Assembly: GCF_018128245.1 (NCBI RefSeq)
Contig: NZ_CP072378.1
Coordinates: forward strand, 372,001-436,000
DNA length: 64,000 nt
Reading direction: 5' to 3'
Source of the DNA: Leptotrichia sp. oral taxon 221
GTDB lineage: Bacteria > Fusobacteriota > Fusobacteriia > Fusobacteriales > Leptotrichiaceae
Position numbers and translations under genes: made by a program. Each line of letters begins with the position of its first letter. Positions within the stretch are counted from its first letter, which is position 1. Positions 47,019 to 56,632 of the stretch are shown piece after piece. The notes under the pieces were generated by a model. It made no database searches. It was not told where the DNA came from and was given only the letters and a program-made list of their open reading frames with translations.

Positions 47019-47672
47019 TTGACAGAGTAAAAAATATAGGGGCAGCCAAAATAACATAATAAAATATTTTTAGCTGTCTTTTTTAAATCATTCTGCTTTG
47101 TGATATTTCCTTCAGAACTTCCCTTATCAAGCTTTCTCCTCCTCTTAAATATGGAATATTTGTCCTTTTTCCTGCTTCGATAATAATATCTGCCAAACAA
47201 TTTGTTTCTATTACTTTTTCCATTGTATCCGCTCTTGACCCATTAAAATACAGTTTGTGAGCCTTGTCCCTATCCTTGCCGTAGTTTGCAAAGAAAGTGC
47301 AGCATCTTCATTTGATCTTTTCTTCTCTGACTTACATTTTCTTTTTCCTTAAAAGTTTTCAAGTTCTGTAAAATTATCTTTCTCAAGCCATATGCTTGTC
47401 AATGAGCTTGTTCCTGTTCTTGCAGAGCTTCTCAATTCCACGATGTATAGCAACCATCCTCATATATGTATTTCTGCTTCTTCTACATTTCATATGATCT
47501 TCATCAATTTCCATATATACTAGTGAATCATCATCCTTTTCAAAACTTTCAATATTAAGTTTTGGCATTTCAAAAGAATTGACAAGATTATACACGGTAG
47601 CTTTTTAAATACCGTAAGTCTTTACAACAAATGAAGCCGCAGTATGCTGATATTCAAAAAGTATAGTAAAAA
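47019..47672 (-). mobile_element. ISLre2-like element remnant, 3' part
   Basis: The left boundary is the same terminal repeat as at 42771 (TTGACAGAGTAAAAAATATA, then GGGGCAGCC). Read on the minus strand it encodes fragments of an ISLre2-type transposase: FEYQHTAASFVVKTYGI, a stop, KATVYNLVNSFEMPKLNIES, LVYMEIDEDHMKCRRSRNTY, and the closing KVIETNCLADIIIEAGKRT. The frame is broken by stops and the middle is deleted. The element has no second end; it runs straight into the IS256-like piece. Confidence 0.75.
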
Positions 47673-48462
47673 TCAGCTTTCTTATCTTTGTATCATATTT
47701 AAAGTATGTTGTCAACTCATTCCAGTTACTTCTCCAGGAATTAATTACTGCCATATACTTTTTACCCCATTTTTCTTCTAATTCATCCAGTTTAAACTCT
47801 GCCTGTTCCAGTGTTGGTGCATTATACATTTCTTTTAAGTCTGATGTAAATTCCCTTGCATCTTTGTAAGAAATATATCTTATGCTATTTCTAATTTGTT
47901 GAACCACACATTTTTGAATTTCTGTCTTTGGAAACACTGAAGATATTGCTTCGCTGAACCCTTTTAAATTGTCAACAGACATAATTAGTATATCCTGAAC
48001 CCCTCTGTTTTTCAATTCATTTAAAACATTTAGCCAGTACTTGCTTGATTCATTTTCTCCTATCCAAAATCCTAAAACCTCCTTTCTTCCTTATCTATTC
48101 CTATAGCTAAATATACCGCCTTTTTAACAACAACTCCATCTTTTCTTACACTGTAATGGATAGCGTCCATAAAAACTATTGGATATACATCCTCAAGCTG
48201 TCTAGACTGCCATTCCCTAAGAGAATGTTTAGCATATCCCAGTTCATGCTCAATTTCAGCTTCAAGCATAGTTTGAATAGTACCCAAAAGAAAATCCTTA
48301 AGCATATCCTTAATATCATTAGTATCTTTAATATTGTAATCCTCAATCAATGTTTTAAAAATTTCGTTGTCAATTTTCTTTTTAGCCATAACAAAAACCT
48401 CCAAATATTATATAGTTATTTTACCATATATTATTTAGAGGTTTACACAAAAATTTTTACAC
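47672..48462 (-). mobile_element. IS256-family remnant fused to the ISLre2 piece
   Basis: The transposase starts at 48389 (MAKKKIDNEIFKTLIEDYNI). It jumps from ELGYAKHSL straight to REWQSRQLEDVYPIVFMDAI, so the DNA-binding half and first catalytic region of a normal IS256 transposase are deleted in frame. A shift near 48070 follows, then LNELKNRGVQDILIMSVDNL and VFPKTEIQKCVVQQIRNSI to NSWRSNWNELTTYF and RKLIF, where the ISLre2 sequence takes over. The outer end at 48441-48462 is palindromic (GTTTACACAAAAATTTTTAC). Not functional. Confidence 0.78.
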
Positions 48463-48494: not shown

Positions 48495-49355
48495 GTTTCA
48501 ATCCTTGTTTTAATGGATTCACTATTCTTACTTCCTAAAGAATTCAAGGATGTTCATATGGGGTATCAAGTCTCAATCCTTGTTTTAATGGATTCACTTC
48601 TTTAACATATTACTCCACAAATAGAAATTGTAGAAGAAGAAAAATGTCTCAATCCTTGTTTTAATGGATTCACTTCTTTAACCTGTAATTCAATCAGCTG
48701 TACAAACAATATTAGACAACGTCTCAATCCTTGTTTTAATGGATTCACTTCTTTAACCCTATCGAAAAGACAAAGGCAGTGCAAGATATGATGGTTGTCT
48801 CAATCCTTGTTTTAATGGATTCACTTCTTTAACATTGGTACATCTTTAATAATATCGAAAAATTAACTCCAGGTCTCAATCCTTGTTTTAATGGATTCAC
48901 TTCTTTAACACTTTCACCACTAGGCTTATCAGAGAATTTTCTACAAGAGTCTCAATCCTTGTTTTAATGGATTCACTTCTTTAACCTATCGAAATATTTT
49001 ACCATCTGTCACTTCGACGTGTACGTCTCAATCCTTGTTTTAATGGATTCACTTCTTTAACATCCAAGGAGGATGAATAAAATGGGATACAATACGGTCT
49101 CAATCCTTGTTTTAATGGATTCACTTCTTTAACCGCTCGTGAAAATGTAGAGGTTTTAAATAAAAGCGTCAGTCTCAATCCTTGTTTTAATGGATTCACT
49201 TCTTTAACCAATACTTTTAGAAATTTGGGTGCTGGGAACGCCAGGTCTCAATCCTTGTTTTAATGGATTCACTTCTTTAACGAAAAAGAAATTGAACTTT
49301 ATATTGATTTTGTTAAAAGTCTCAATCCTTGTTTTAATGGATTCACTTCTTTAAC
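48495..49355 (-). CRISPR. CRISPR array, 12 repeats of 37 bases, 11 spacers, no cas genes in window
   Basis: Repeats start at 48495, 48570, 48646, 48721, 48797, 48873, 48949, 49025, 49097, 49172, 49245 and 49319. On the + strand each begins GTCTCAATCCTTGTTTTAAT and ends GGATTCACTTCTTTAAC. Spacers are 35-39 bases, mostly 38-39. The repeat at 48495 differs at its third base and over its last ten bases, as expected for the leader-distal end, so transcription should run on the minus strand from the 49.4-kb side. In that direction the repeat ends ATTGAGAC, like the 8-base handle of type I and III repeats. The subtype cannot be set without cas genes. Apart from the terminal repeat, all copies look identical. 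Confidence 0.97.
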
Positions 49356-49723
49356 ACGTACTTTCAAGAAAATCCTTTATTTATAGGTGCTACAGAGATT
49401 TTTTCAGACATTAAAATCGTATTTTTTTGATTAATTTTTATCATTTTATGCTGTTTTTTTAGCATTTTCCGTAACTCCTAATCCTCATTTTTATTGACTT
49501 TGAGTAGATTTTCTTTATTTTTGATAGTGGTAGGAATTTTTACCACGAACTTATTTTACCATACTTTTTTATTTTTTCAAAATTTTTTTTGATTTTGATA
49601 ATCACAATATTTTTTTAAAAAAATTTGAAATTTGTAACAATTGTAACATCTTTAGAACTGTTATTGTGATATAATAATTTGAAAAACTAAATAATTATTT
49701 TTATAGAAAGGAAAATTTAAATA
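49356..49723. promoter_or_regulatory. CRISPR leader side and promoter of the DUF1858 operon
   Basis: A 368-base AT-rich gap. The part next to the array is the probable leader (minus direction). Near the other end an extended -10, TGATATAAT (TATAAT at 49670-49675), faces the gene at 49724; no good -35 is present. Just upstream, TTGTAACAATTGTAACA (49632 on) is a GTAAC direct repeat around a CAATTG centre and could bind an activator. AAAGGAAAA precedes the ATG at 49724. I see no cobalamin riboswitch. Confidence 0.5.
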
Positions 49724-50959
49724 ATGGAAAATAAATTTTTTAAAATGACAGATACGCTGTTTGATATTATGGATAGATATCCAGAAGCGTTAGATTTCTT
49801 TATTTCTAACGGTTTTGAGCAATTGAAGAATAAACAAATGTTGAATATAATGGGAAAAACGATTAAGCTAGAGATGGCATTGAAGGCAAAAAAAATAAAT
49901 CCAGATTTATTTGAGGAAAAATTAGTGACATTTTTGCAAAAGGATAGTGATATTGATATTTCGCTTGAGGAAGTGAAAGCGGATGGAACTGGAGATATTA
50001 CAATTGAGGGAGTTTTGCCTTGTCCAATAAGAATACCTTTGCTTGAAGGGATAAAAGAGTGGGTTGAAGATAGCAACAAGAAAAATGATTACAAAATTAC
50101 TTATGAATTGAAATCGGCAAATTTAGGATTGGATGATGTTGTGGAAAAAGTAAAAACTGGAGATCCTGACAAAGTGCCAGATGTGTTACTATCAGCTGGA
50201 TACGAGTTATTTTTTGATGAGGAATTGATGGGTCAATACATGAAAAAAGGTATATTTGAAACGTATTTTGATGAAATTAATAAAGATTTTTGTAATGAAA
50301 AGATTGATTTGAGAGATCCTCAAAAAAAATATGCGATTATGGGAGTTGTTCCAGCAGTATTTTTGATAAATAAAGCGGTTTTAGGAGATAGAAAAGTTCC
50401 AGAAACGTGGGATGATATTTTGAGTGAAGAGTTGGAAAACTCAGTTGCGTTACCAATGAATGATTTGGATTTATTTAATGCGTTAATAGCAACTATCTAC
50501 AAAGATTACGGTATGGATGGGATTTATAAATTAGCAAGATCATACAAGAAAAATTTACATCCAGCTCAAATGGTAAAAGCTAAAGGTAGAACGCCAGAAG
50601 CTCCAGCAGTCAGTATTATTCCATATTTCTTTACACAAATGTTAAATGGAGCAAAAGATTTAGAAGCAGTTTGGCCAAAAGATGGAGCATTACTAAGTCC
50701 GATATTTATGATTACGAAAAAAGATAAAATGGATAAAATAAAACCATTTATGGATTTCTTTGTATCAGAAAAAATTGGAGAATTATTTTCAGCAAGTGGG
50801 AAATTTCCTTCAACGAATCCAAAAACAGATAATCATTTAACGCCAGAACAAGGATTTAAGTGGATTGGATGGGATTATATTCACAGTCATGATATTGGGA
50901 AAATAATTAGAGAAGGAGAAGATGAATTTAATAAGGCTGTGGAAAAATATATAAGATAG
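49724..50959 (+). CDS. DUF1858 plus solute-binding-like protein without signal peptide
   Basis: A 411-residue protein. Residues 1-65 look like a DUF1858 domain (TLFDIMDRYPEALDFFISNG). Residues about 85-400 resemble an ABC solute-binding protein of the iron/thiamine type: ELKSANLGLDDVVEKVKTGD, PDVLLSAGYELFFDEE, GVVPAVFLINKAVLG, VPETWDDILSEELENSVALP and AVWPKDGALLSPIFMI. There is no signal peptide or lipobox, so the binding fold should be cytoplasmic, which is unusual. First gene of a three-gene unit with a GTPase and an ABC ATPase. Ligand unknown. Confidence 0.75.
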   Translation: MENKFFKMTDTLFDIMDRYPEALDFFISNGFEQLKNKQMLNIMGKTIKLEMALKAKKINPDLFEEKLVTFLQKDSDIDISLEEVKADGTGDITIEGVLPCPIRIPLLEGIKEWVEDSNKKNDYKITYELKSANLGLDDVVEKVKTGDPDKVPDVLLSAGYELFFDEELMGQYMKKGIFETYFDEINKDFCNEKIDLRDPQKKYAIMGVVPAVFLINKAVLGDRKVPETWDDILSEELENSVALPMNDLDLFNALIATIYKDYGMDGIYKLARSYKKNLHPAQMVKAKGRTPEAPAVSIIPYFFTQMLNGAKDLEAVWPKDGALLSPIFMITKKDKMDKIKPFMDFFVSEKIGELFSASGKFPSTNPKTDNHLTPEQGFKWIGWDYIHSHDIGKIIREGEDEFNKAVEKYIR

Positions 50960-51011
50960 AAATTTTATTAAAAATTAAAATGATGAAAATGAAAAAATTA
51001 AGGAGAGAAAA

Positions 51012-51713
51012 ATGAATTTAGTTATATTTTCAGGACCGCCATCTTCAGGAAAAACAAGTGTTATCTTGAAAACGGTCGATGCATTAAAAAAACAAGGAAT
51101 GTCAGTTGGTGTAGTAAAATTTGATTGCTTGTACACAGATGATGACAAATTGTATGAAAAAGCAGGGATTCCAGTGAAAAAAGGGATTTCAGGAGCTTTG
51201 TGTCCAGATCATTTTTTCGTATCGAATATCGAGGAAGTTGTGCAATGGGGAAGAAGTTTGGGATTATCGGTTTTAATTACAGAATCAGCGGGATTGTGTA
51301 ATCGTTGTTCGCCATATATTAAAGATATAAAAGGAGTTTGTGTAATTGATAATTTATCAGGAATTAATACGCCTAAAAAAATTGGTCCAATGTTAAAATC
51401 AGCTGATATTGTCATCATCACAAAAGGGGACATCGTTTCTCAAGCAGAAAGAGAAGTATTTGCGTCGAGAGTTAATTCAGTAAATCCGACAGCTGTAACA
51501 ATGCATGTGAATGGTTTGACAGGACAAGGAGCTTATGAATTGAGCACATTGTTGTATGAAAAAGAAAAAGAAATTGAAACAGTTCAAGGGAAAAAACTTA
51601 GATTTCCAATGCCTTCAGCACTTTGTTCGTATTGCTTAGGTGAAACAAGAATTGGTGAAAAATACCAAATGGGAAATGTTAGAAAAATGAATTTAGGTGG
51701 TGCGAATGAATAG
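51012..51713 (+). CDS. HypB/CobW-like P-loop GTPase
   Basis: A 233-residue G3E-type P-loop protein. Walker A is SGPPSSGKTSVILKTVDAL (residue 7 on), followed by VVKFDCLYTDDDKLY, a switch-like VLITESAGLCNRCSPYI, and IVIITKGDIVSQAE, close to the NKxD guanine motif. Two CxxC pairs (CNRC and CSYC) could bind metal or a cluster. HypB and relatives load nickel or other metals into enzymes. GGAGAGAAA precedes the ATG. Its stop overlaps the start of the next gene. Confidence 0.78.
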   Translation: MNLVIFSGPPSSGKTSVILKTVDALKKQGMSVGVVKFDCLYTDDDKLYEKAGIPVKKGISGALCPDHFFVSNIEEVVQWGRSLGLSVLITESAGLCNRCSPYIKDIKGVCVIDNLSGINTPKKIGPMLKSADIVIITKGDIVSQAEREVFASRVNSVNPTAVTMHVNGLTGQGAYELSTLLYEKEKEIETVQGKKLRFPMPSALCSYCLGETRIGEKYQMGNVRKMNLGGANE

Positions 51714-52716
51714 AAATTTAGTGGATAAACTTTCGATGAAAGAATTAATAGAAAAATATCCGTTTGCTGAAAATTTTTTCGTTGAAAATAATATAATTAT
51801 TGAAGGATATGAAAACGAAACTTTTAGTAAGTTTTTGAAAATGTTTACAGAAGAGCAAAAAGAAGACATGGCACTTGATGTGGAAAATATTGAGATTTCG
51901 TTAATTGAATATGTTGAGCAAATGAAATTGTTTTTGGGAATGGAAGAAGAAACAGGTGTTGAAACGCTTACAATTTTGGCTGGACAAGACAAAACAGGAA
52001 ATCCAGAAGGATTTGGAAGATTAGATATTCATAAATCAGAAATAATTTCAATCGTAGGACCAACAGGTTCAGGAAAATCAAGATTATTAGCTGACATCGA
52101 ATGGACGGCACAAAAAGATACGCCAACCCAAAGAGAAATTTTAATAAATAACGAATCTCCTGACAAAAAATGGAGATTTTCATCAAATAATAAATTAGTT
52201 GCTCAATTATCGCAAAATATGAATTTTGTTATGGATTTGTCGGTTAAAGAATTTTTGGAATTACATGCTAAAAGCCGTATGGTTGAAGATGTGGAAGCTG
52301 TAACAGAAAAAATAATTTTAGAAGCAAATAAATTAGCAGGAGAAAAGTTTAACCTAGATACAGCAATTACAGCCTTAAGTGGAGGACAATCAAGAGCATT
52401 AATGATCGCTGATACAGCAATTTTAAGTTCATCTCCAATCGTTTTAATTGATGAAATTGAAAACGCTGGAATTGATAGAAAAAAAGCATTAGAATTATTG
52501 GTTTCTGCAGATAAAATAGTCTTAATGGCGACTCACGATCCAACATTAGCTCTAATTGCAAACAAAAGAGTAATCATAAAAAATGGTGGAATTGCTAAAA
52601 TAATCGAAACAACGCTAGAAGAAAAAGAAATTTTAAAAGAATTAGATAAAATGGACGAAAAAATTCAAAAAATGAGAGCAAATTTAAGAAATGGAGAAAT
52701 ACTTTCTAGTTTGTAG
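51706..52716 (+). CDS. DUF1858-like domain fused to an ABC ATPase
   Basis: A 336-residue protein. Residues 1-75 (MKELIEKYPFAENFFVENNI) parallel the N-terminus of the first gene's product. The ATPase has Walker A SIVGPTGSGKSRLLADIEW, signature ALSGGQSRALMIADTA, Walker B PIVLIDEIENAGID and a switch histidine in LMATHDPTLALIANKR. The ATG at 51706 overlaps the GTPase stop by eight bases, with AGGTGG upstream, so translation is coupled. An upstream GTG at 51697 is less likely. No permease gene is present. A terminator follows. Confidence 0.8.
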   Translation: MNRNLVDKLSMKELIEKYPFAENFFVENNIIIEGYENETFSKFLKMFTEEQKEDMALDVENIEISLIEYVEQMKLFLGMEEETGVETLTILAGQDKTGNPEGFGRLDIHKSEIISIVGPTGSGKSRLLADIEWTAQKDTPTQREILINNESPDKKWRFSSNNKLVAQLSQNMNFVMDLSVKEFLELHAKSRMVEDVEAVTEKIILEANKLAGEKFNLDTAITALSGGQSRALMIADTAILSSSPIVLIDEIENAGIDRKKALELLVSADKIVLMATHDPTLALIANKRVIIKNGGIAKIIETTLEEKEILKELDKMDEKIQKMRANLRNGEILSSL

Positions 52717-52730
52717 AGAGTTGATTTGTT

Positions 52731-52770
52731 AAAAAATAGAGTAAACTTGTGAGTTTTACTCTATTTTTAT
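52731..52770 (+). terminator. Terminator closing the three-gene unit
   Basis: AAAAATAGAGTAAA and TTTACTCTATTTTT pair around an eight- to ten-base loop. Confidence 0.85.
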
Positions 52771-54463: not shown

Positions 54464-56632
54464 ATGAAAGAAACATTAATATTGTTAACATTATTTTTAA
54501 GTTTAAACAGTTTGAGTGCAAGTCTAAAAATGACAAAGGAAAAAACAGATAGTTTAGAAAAAGATGCAAAGTATATAAAATATAAAAAAGAGAAACACGA
54601 AAAGATGGATGAAAGTAGCTACATTCAATTTTCTGATCTTGGCTATGGAGTACAGGATTTGAAAGCTATAACAGGACTTTCAAATATAAATGTTTATGCA
54701 AGTAATAAACCTACAAAAGAAATAGATGATGCTCATACTTCAAAAATGATAAAAAGCTTTAAAAATGCAGTGGGAGAAGATTGGTTTTTTAGAAATAAGG
54801 ATAGATACTATATAATGTCATCATTTACTAATCCTAGATGGTGGAGTGGAATAATAGTAAATTCAAAATTTGGAGTTTATGGTGGGAGAAGTTATTTAAG
54901 TGGCGATGGAATTTATTTTGGAAATGTGATAAATGAAGTATTACTTGGAAGAAATGGTTCTAGACGAGTGTTTACTGATAATACTGATAATAGAAATCTT
55001 TTTATTACAGCTCTTGATAATTCAGAGGATGAAGGTGATTATAAATTTCATAATACGAGTGGTACTAAAATAGGAGATATTGTAGTACCTACAACAGAAA
55101 CGATGATATTTCCAAGTTTTGGAAGTGAGGCACAAAAATTAATAAGAAGTGACAAGATATTTGTAGGTGAGTATATCTGTAGAGATGATGGAGGATTTGA
55201 ATGGGAATTTGAAGTTCCTAAGAGGATAGCTAAAAATGATAAAAGAGAAAGTAATTATAACGAAGATTCGTATACTTGTAATTTTGCAGCTTCAAAAGGA
55301 GAAATGGCAAATTTTGCATTGTATAATAGAGCGGCAGCTGTAATTAGTAATGGTGAAATAAAAGCAGTAAATAAATATTCTCACGGAAGTTCGTATGCAA
55401 CTCCAAAAGTAGGAGGTTATGCGTCACTCATTCAAGAAAAATTTCCAAATATGAATTATATGCAAATAAAACAAGTTCTCTTAACAACAGCATATAGACC
55501 TAAAGATGAACTTAGTAACATAGCTGGATGGGGAGCCGTAGATATTGAAAAAGCCTTAAAAGGTCCATCAAGTTTCAATGCAGGATTAATTGAAGAAGAA
55601 AAATTTTTTACAGGAAGATATGATAAAATTTTTGACAAAAAAGGAAATGTCTATTTTTATGCAGATGTAAAGGACAATGATAAGTGGGAATGGTCAAATG
55701 ATATTGGTGGAGGATTGACAAGCGTTCCATCAAATGATAAGACATACAATTTTCTTGTGAACTATGACAAGTATAAAATAACAACTGAAGGAAAAGAAAA
55801 GGGTGTAATAGAAAATATGAATATAAAAGCTGTACTTCCTAGCGAATACAATTATTATGAAAAATTAAGTAAATATAATACAGGACTTAGAAAAGCTGGT
55901 ACAGGTACGCTTATAACAACAGGAAATCTAAATTATAAAGGTCCAACTCAAGTTTTGGAAGGTACACTTGAAATTGATGGAGATGCTATAACTTCACCTA
56001 TATGGGTATTTGAAAATGCAACTCTTGTACTAGATGGAAAAAATCAGACATTAAAAGAAGTAAATGCAGATGGAGGACTTATAAAAGTATATGGAAAAGT
56101 TCATATAAATGAACTTGCTATGACAGGAATATCTGATATAAAACTTTATGGAAAAGATTCAGAATTAACAGTTGATAAATTTATTTCAACTAAGGAAAAG
56201 GCAGAAAAATTAGGTGATATCCAAGATGTGGAACTAAAAAAAGTTTCAGAAGTCAATGAAAAATGGGGAGCAAACGATGTAATAATCAATGAATATAAAG
56301 TTGTAGATCTTCCAAGAGAATTTTATTTGAGCAATTTTGGAAGTGAATTGAAAAAATTTGATACTAATGATTCTTATGAAAAAATGTATGAAAAATTAAA
56401 AAAGAGATACACAATTTTTAGGGATTCAGATGAATCAATAAAAATCGAAGTTCCAGGATACAAAAATGGTGTTTTTGCAATAGAAAAAGATGCAGATTAT
56501 TCTGGTTTTGATCCAAGAGAATACTCAGATAATATGATAGGAGTAATTTCCTCACAGGACGATTTAAAATCAATAGATTCTGATTTTAATTTTGTTCCTC
56601 TTGATAAAGCCTTAAAAGATGCAAAAAAATAA
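54464..56632 (+). CDS. Secreted subtilase-like (S8) protein lacking recognisable Asp and His motifs and a barrel
   Basis: A 722-residue exported protein (signal peptide ETLILLTLFLSLNSLSAS). SHGSSYATPKVGGYASLIQE is the S8 serine motif with S310, followed by QIKQVLLTTAYR and GWGAVDIEKAL, as in fusobacterial subtilisin-like autotransporters. The expected D-T/S-G and HGTH motifs are not found in residues 50-250, so it may be a pseudo-protease. Residues about 470-520 hold an autotransporter beta-strand repeat (AGTGTLITTGNLNYKGPTQV). There is no C-terminal beta-barrel. After the stop, the same frame stays open for 29 codons. GGAG precedes the ATG. It splits the cobalamin cluster. Confidence 0.78.
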   Translation: MKETLILLTLFLSLNSLSASLKMTKEKTDSLEKDAKYIKYKKEKHEKMDESSYIQFSDLGYGVQDLKAITGLSNINVYASNKPTKEIDDAHTSKMIKSFKNAVGEDWFFRNKDRYYIMSSFTNPRWWSGIIVNSKFGVYGGRSYLSGDGIYFGNVINEVLLGRNGSRRVFTDNTDNRNLFITALDNSEDEGDYKFHNTSGTKIGDIVVPTTETMIFPSFGSEAQKLIRSDKIFVGEYICRDDGGFEWEFEVPKRIAKNDKRESNYNEDSYTCNFAASKGEMANFALYNRAAAVISNGEIKAVNKYSHGSSYATPKVGGYASLIQEKFPNMNYMQIKQVLLTTAYRPKDELSNIAGWGAVDIEKALKGPSSFNAGLIEEEKFFTGRYDKIFDKKGNVYFYADVKDNDKWEWSNDIGGGLTSVPSNDKTYNFLVNYDKYKITTEGKEKGVIENMNIKAVLPSEYNYYEKLSKYNTGLRKAGTGTLITTGNLNYKGPTQVLEGTLEIDGDAITSPIWVFENATLVLDGKNQTLKEVNADGGLIKVYGKVHINELAMTGISDIKLYGKDSELTVDKFISTKEKAEKLGDIQDVELKKVSEVNEKWGANDVIINEYKVVDLPREFYLSNFGSELKKFDTNDSYEKMYEKLKKRYTIFRDSDESIKIEVPGYKNGVFAIEKDADYSGFDPREYSDNMIGVISSQDDLKSIDSDFNFVPLDKALKDAKK

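Follow-up and report, generated by a model that had tools for sequence, protein, structure and literature searches.

A conserved three-gene cytosolic unit in the HcpR nitrosative-stress context of Leptotrichia and other anaerobes, with a possible role in metal handling

Within a 64,000-nucleotide stretch of the genome of Leptotrichia sp. oral taxon 221 (contig NZ_CP072378.1, positions 372,001 to 436,000; the window), three adjacent genes encode a solute-binding-like protein, a GTPase and an ABC ATPase, referred to here as the trio. An initial annotation, drawn from the letters of this stretch alone, had read them as a cytosolic machine for the capture and insertion of a metal or corrinoid. Our analysis reveals that the trio is widespread in anaerobes of several phyla, and that its conserved context, which lies beyond that sequence-only view, is the nitrosative-stress regulon of HcpR. 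The open reading frames (ORFs) confirm three adjacent genes, the last two overlapping by eight bases (51706-51713), with no permease adjacent in the window; the closing terminator of the initial annotation holds in part (last line below). The features, by window coordinate, are:

49633..49648, no strand assigned: imperfect HcpR-type palindrome TGTAACAATTGTAACA, 9/10 of GTAACN4GTTAC, starting about 90 bases before gene 1
49670..49675, + strand: TATAAT, candidate -10 element just 3' of the palindrome, read directly from the sequence and unscored in the consensus promoter scan
49724..50959, + strand: gene 1, 411 residues, DUF1858 (residues 9-63) and an FbpA-like solute-binding domain (about residues 91-405), from Pfam and a structure model
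51012..51713, + strand: gene 2, 233 residues, UreG/HypB-family G3E GTPase, from the ORF, Pfam and alignment
51706..52716, + strand: gene 3, 336 residues from the ATG, DUF1858-like N-terminal domain and soluble ABC ATPase, from the ORF, Pfam and profile-profile comparison
about 52733..52768, + strand: terminator-like hairpin and T-run after gene 3, seen by eye, absent from the scan listing

Protein 1 combines an SBP_bac_6 domain (Pfam, 3.6e-78) with an N-terminal DUF1858 domain (7.2e-16). Its predicted structure has the two-lobed FbpA-like fold, with ferric-binding proteins as the top fold matches of the model and AfuA and P5PA as further neighbours; by sequence, its neighbours include P5PA and phosphonate- and polyamine-binding proteins. 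FbpA binds ferric iron through a tyrosine pair and a histidine (His9). The region of protein 1 that appears to match His9, judged by region rather than by residue-level alignment, holds Cys100, which is conserved in 71 of 72 sequences, as is Tyr301 in 68. The solute-binding fold without a signal peptide, as initially described, was upheld by Pfam, by the model, which opens with the DUF1858 helices, and by a crude test on 131 window-type relatives, in which no 14-residue window starting within the first 45 residues held more than 12 apolar residues and the peak was 8-9 in 116 of them.

The second protein matches the cobW/HypB/UreG family (Pfam, 1.5e-11) and shows sequence and profile kinship to the UreG/HypB (G3E) GTPases, with its nucleotide motifs intact. 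These include the P-loop GPPSSGKT and TKGD, accompanied by CPDH (64-67), ESAGLCNRC (91-99) and CSYC (205-208). The two CxxC pairs noted earlier, C96/C99 and C205/C208, proved invariant among 36 diverse GTPases, as did CPDH. UreG and HypB are the nearest solved full-domain GTPases, and CPDH aligns with the CPH motif of UreG, which has a role in nickel handling. The protein is the equivalog of neither, scoring 44 bits against a cut-off of 121 for hypB and 27 against 204 for ureG. Conservation of these residues makes the CPDH and CxxC sites predicted metal sites.

Protein 3 is an ABC ATPase (ABC_tran, 1.1e-15) that lacks a membrane domain, and the Walker A, LSGGQ signature, Walker B and H-loop (switch histidine) recognized initially vary little or not at all across 56 aligned sequences. 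Pfam missed a DUF1858 domain in this protein. Profile-profile comparison with hhalign, using the 49 of 56 rows that were long enough, matched its N-terminus to DUF1858 at 96% (E 2e-9), against 0.4% for a control segment; because of this match, the N-terminal domain that the initial annotation saw in both proteins 1 and 3 can be regarded as common to them. We take DUF1858 to be akin to the N-terminal domain of ScdA. The DUF1858-like domain is absent from the ABC protein of some relatives (L044-L051).

The trio is conserved as a unit. Among 98 Fusobacteriota genomes the GTPase is present in 55, and all three genes occur in the same order in 45 of 46 Fusobacteriota loci, the window counted, the exception (L037) being cut by a contig end. 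A single scan of about 85,000 species genomes returned 436 GTPase relatives, and the best 80 were kept. These came mostly from Tissierellia, Peptostreptococcus and other Firmicutes, together with four of the Leptotrichia group, two Halanaerobium, a spirochaete, a Bacteroidales, an Aminicenantes and an Acidobacteria contig, among others. In an overlap-filtered ORF list, 79 of these 80 loci had protein 1 and 75 had the ABC protein; with the unfiltered list the trio was complete in all 65 window-type loci that had at least 5 kb on each side. Some loci represent one genome twice (for example L128/L160, L064/L178, L070/L180, L034/L054, L032/L126). GTPase identity to that of the window is 71-80% in Fusobacteriota outside the family and 79-88% in the non-Fusobacterial members of the best 80, all of which reach at least 79%; the values of this set are selected, since the 80 best were taken from 436. 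The recurrence of a fixed order in other genera and phyla, far outside the genus, indicates that the trio is more than a chance arrangement. In a tree of the ABC protein the window-type clade forms a single branch (100/99), and Leptotrichia joins Peptostreptococcus (95/93) apart from other Fusobacteriota, as horizontal transfer would produce. Confidence is lower for the deeper forks, with a long-branch warning among divergent rows, and the group statistic, which leaves ungrouped rows out of account, has no bearing on the question.

Upstream of most window-type trios lies, perfect or nearly so, the palindrome GTAACN4GTTAC, given as the HcpR2 site in a passage of Rodionov and colleagues (PMC1274295). 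Of 98 window-type upstream regions, 57 hold a perfect copy, where dinucleotide shuffles predict 0.01, and a further 13 regions score 9/10 (0.38 expected), the median distance from site to start codon being 82 bases. Across 2.23 Mb of loci we counted 96 perfect sites (2.2 expected): 58 before the trio, 29 before hcp and 9 elsewhere. Near divergent relatives of the trio there was none in 566 kb. Genome-wide, 14 of 15 genomes hold 2 to 6 perfect sites and a reversed control pattern is about equally frequent; therefore, the position of the site is what counts. Motifs of FNR and HcpR1 were tried and are not enriched upstream of the trio, and that of CRP shows a mild excess at 9/10 (8 against 0.9 expected) with none at 10.

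The window's own site reads GTAACAATTGTAAC and, at 9/10, is weaker evidence than the perfect sites of the clade; the whole window genome contains no perfect site. A relaxed form, TGTAAYN4RTTACA, precedes the trio by no more than about 300 bases in 8 of 12 Leptotrichiaceae genomes searched, which hold just one to seven such palindromes each, and the window genome's site before the trio does not match it. Since the putative recognition helix of the regulator differs, by eye, from that of the other Fusobacteriota, a shifted specificity is plausible. In the reading proposed below, HcpR would bind the imperfect site of the window. Several Leptotrichia loci (L018-L027) show, by eye, terminator-like hairpins between palindrome and gene 1, perhaps an attenuator.

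The distribution of HcpR follows that of the trio. The Crp/Fnr gene beside the trio in locus L054 served as query; any match at 1e-8 occurred in 70 of the 98 Fusobacteriota genomes, and HcpR, counted at no less than 119 bits, in 65. It is present in 50 of 55 trio genomes against 15 of 43 others (p 5e-9) and in 18 of 20 trio genera against 1 of 9 others (p 9e-5), in presence sets assembled by hand and Fisher tests that ignore kinship. Hcp, counted at any match, partial ones included (as in G091), differs by genus (18/20 against 2/9, p 7e-4) and not by genome (38/55 against 28/43, p 0.83). All 65 HcpR genomes carry hcp or the trio, 16 of them the trio without hcp, and the HcpR gene adjoins hcp in one genome (G026) and the trio in another (G074). 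Hcp is missing from 17 of 55 trio genomes, and from 15 when only the 46 with a completeness of 90% or more are counted; the window genome itself has an intact HcpR (225 residues, L246), the trio and no Hcp. Hcp as an obligate partner, suggested by adjacency, was thus rejected. Its presence in 17 of 20 trio genomes of a smaller set says little, because Hcp is common among anaerobes.

Other genes recur beside the trio or behind its sites. Of 68 loci with sufficient flank, 32 have an hcp gene on the same strand that begins no more than 1.5 kb downstream of the ABC gene. Directly 3' of the ABC gene many loci carry a small zinc-ribbon gene (about 80 residues, MHE/MHD start) whose product matches HypA weakly (6e-4), in the ribbon part only, and stays below the HypA cut-offs (20.2 against 28.9 bits and 19.2 against 88.1). 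It occurs in 28 of the 98 Fusobacteriota genomes, 27 of them trio-positive and the exception 62% complete; it was not found in the window genome or in any of the 13 genomes of genus g5. The small gene adjoins hcp in G048 and, by coordinates, in G050. Three Peptostreptococcus genomes, two of them sampled twice and together making up 5 of 65 loci, have a flavodiiron-type protein (Pfam ODP and flavodoxin) after the trio, and FDH- or molybdenum-cofactor-like genes lie upstream in a few Firmicutes by eye.

We also inspected 31 regions (L197-L227): three hcp controls and 28 regions whose sites had not already turned up at the trio, hcp or the small gene. The site falls within a gene in 13 of the 31; by eye, six sites precede genes unrelated or of unrecognised kind, one is flanked by a globin gene and a receptor-like gene, and one extends over the beginning of a flavodiiron gene. 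Small cupin genes (L197, L200, L203, L206, L220) and CxxC DUF1858 genes (L202, L219) directly behind sites, again by eye, are candidate further members of the nitric oxide (NO) regulon. An NO-induced cupin beside hcp appears in a listing in PMC5701242.

Relatives of the trio whose GTPase is 40-64% identical to that of the window, the divergent trios, occur in a different setting. In 26 long-flank loci FecB was nearby in 16, FecC in 13, an S-adenosylmethionine (SAM) methyltransferase in 12, DUF364 in 2 and NifHDK-like genes in 1, and modABC/ModE-like and Oxidored_molyb genes lie near some divergent loci. Within the neighbourhoods of the 65 window-type loci, a FecC-type permease was found within 6 kb in just 2; with neither an exported binding protein nor an operon permease seen, the trio does not have the make-up of a binding-protein-dependent ABC importer. 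Trio relatives of either type occur in 18 of 296 genomes from the phylum of G098, most of which look like Chlorobia by gene content, and in 20 of 391 from the class of G102, four with two or three copies. A Chlorobia-like cluster (L143-L158) mostly joins a TonB receptor, FecBCD, a SAM methyltransferase and a divergent trio, some members having TonB, modABC-like genes, a TOBE/LysR helix-turn-helix regulator or an Oxidored_molyb protein nearby. In Tissierella praeacuta a second, divergent trio clusters with NifH-, NifD- and NifK-like genes and a FecBCD importer (L172:9612-18053), a good model locus for unexplained nitrogenase-like clusters. At L173, L171 and L088 a transporter with an 'LKGPTGMG'-type binding protein adjoins the trio; that of L171 matches VitK2_biosynth, Phosphonate-bd and NMT1 in Pfam.

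Passages of PMC3464626 describe NifHEN-like genes beside ABC-family ATPases and, in other species, beside hydrogenase-maturation proteins, and suggest that metal transport is coupled to cofactor assembly; a passage of PMC2954201 places DUF364 with metal transport. The simplest history would be that the HcpR regulon acquired, with DUF1858 on the binding protein, the cytosolic portion of a system for metal-chelate uptake and cofactor assembly.

Around the trio in the window, an array of twelve 37-base CRISPR-DR7 repeats lies just upstream (48495-49355) beside transposase-like ORFs (47605-48404, by eye). Downstream, a subtilase/autotransporter-like ORF of 722 residues (54464-56632, by eye) is flanked by cobalamin genes.

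These findings lend good support to the window-type trio as a nitrosative-stress system for the clade, and make this likely for the window. Three kinds of component speak for metal handling by the trio: the UreG/HypB-family GTPase, the FbpA-like fold and the HypA-like zinc-ribbon neighbour. We put the full reading, an HcpR-controlled, cytosolic machine for metal handling under NO stress, at even chances, with the repair of iron centres as its favoured task. Mechanistically, NO would break iron centres and HcpR would turn the operon on. The FbpA-like protein would take an iron, or other metal, complex into its cleft, probably via Cys100. Through its CPDH/CxxC sites the GTPase, in many species together with the zinc-ribbon protein, would then accept the metal. 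The soluble ABC ATPase could dock on protein 1 via paired DUF1858 domains and power an opening or transfer step, returning metal to damaged or new metalloproteins. Iron is the favoured metal, and the docking, the target proteins and the direction of transfer are likewise proposals of this model. More tentatively, the trio may represent a new cytosolic machine, in which a ferric-binding-type receptor for iron or dinitrosyl-iron freed by NO, a G3E GTPase and a soluble ABC ATPase rebuild metal centres, and which would have arisen by the conversion of one half, the cytosolic, of a system for metal-chelate uptake and cofactor assembly to stress repair.

Other functions would account for parts of the same evidence. 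HypA/HypB and UreG are nickel delivery proteins, and the trio could deliver nickel (or cobalt) to a dedicated enzyme whose sensitivity to NO, or part in its detoxification, would explain the place of the trio in the NO regulon. The kinship of the GTPase, the alignment of CPDH with CPH, the MHE/MHD start and weak HypA match of the small protein and the FecBCD-type importers of relatives would all agree with this. However, ferric-binding proteins are the top fold matches of protein 1, and inspection by eye picked out no nickel enzyme beside the trio, none having been searched for; we consider nickel delivery unlikely. Somewhat less likely still, the trio and the zinc-ribbon protein could form a maturation system that assembles or loads the iron cluster of Hcp. 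The proximity of hcp downstream, the HcpR sites common to both, the small gene beside hcp in G048 and G050 and the association by genus would fit such a system. This hypothesis is already weakened by genomes that have one but not the other: the trio occurs alone in the window genome and in 10 of the 13 of genus g5, Hcp alone in 28 genomes, and the association vanishes at genome level.

Turning from metals altogether, protein 1 could be a cytosolic sensor of a phosphorylated metabolite (pyridoxal phosphate or a sugar phosphate) that gates the ATPase, in keeping with its sequence neighbours and with AfuA and P5PA as fold neighbours. We judge this improbable, given the invariant CPDH and CxxC pairs, the nearly invariant Cys100 and the metal-chelate importers beside divergent relatives. 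The least credible alternative is the capture of a corrinoid or other tetrapyrrole, which the initial annotation had drawn from the cobalamin genes that follow the trio; cob-like genes (cobU/cobS/cobT-like, by eye) at one other locus, L051, and the FecBCD, methyltransferase and NifHDK-like genes of relatives would suit it. Nevertheless, inspection by eye of the 45 neighbour clusters that recur most often across the 80 loci showed no cobalamin family, the next two downstream ORFs in Leptotrichia hongkongensis (L058) are not cob genes, and a search of eight loci (six from divergent relatives, two from Fusobacteriota) and of the window found no cobalamin riboswitch. The cytosolic, permease-less, metal-type character first proposed is supported and the corrinoid link is not; a joint functional assignment or other description of the trio was not found in the open-access literature searched.

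Placement of the trio in the NO regulon implies a testable role in the survival of host or environmental NO by anaerobes, in some species without Hcp. Compared with the known HcpR nitrosative-stress regulon (hcp, frdX), the trio shares the palindrome, and the regulator adjoins it in several genomes, but literature passages on the regulon do not name it as a target. PMC12750200 describes HcpR of Porphyromonas as a haem-dependent NO sensor. With FecBCD importers joined to NifHDK-like genes the link is the divergent trio of L172 in such a cluster and the others beside FecBCD, whereas window-type loci seldom lie in such surroundings and most of them have HcpR sites; if the proposed role is true, the trio's relatives would offer a handle on these unexplained clusters. 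Among proteins of the SBP_bac_6 fold, such as FbpA, FutA and HitA, protein 1 stands apart in lacking a signal peptide and a permease and in its N-terminal DUF1858. The GTPase shares with the UreG/HypB G3E GTPases the P-loop, ExxG, KxD, the metal-type CP(x)H position and the overall alignment, and differs in its extra CxxC pairs and in its partners, an ABC ATPase and a binding protein rather than urease or hydrogenase genes. In its proposed job the trio resembles the RIC/YtfE iron-centre repair proteins; unlike them, it has no diiron hemerythrin domain by Pfam and is driven by nucleoside triphosphates (NTPs), so that, should it indeed repair or reload metal centres, the trio would be the NTP-dependent equivalent of the RIC-type repair proteins.

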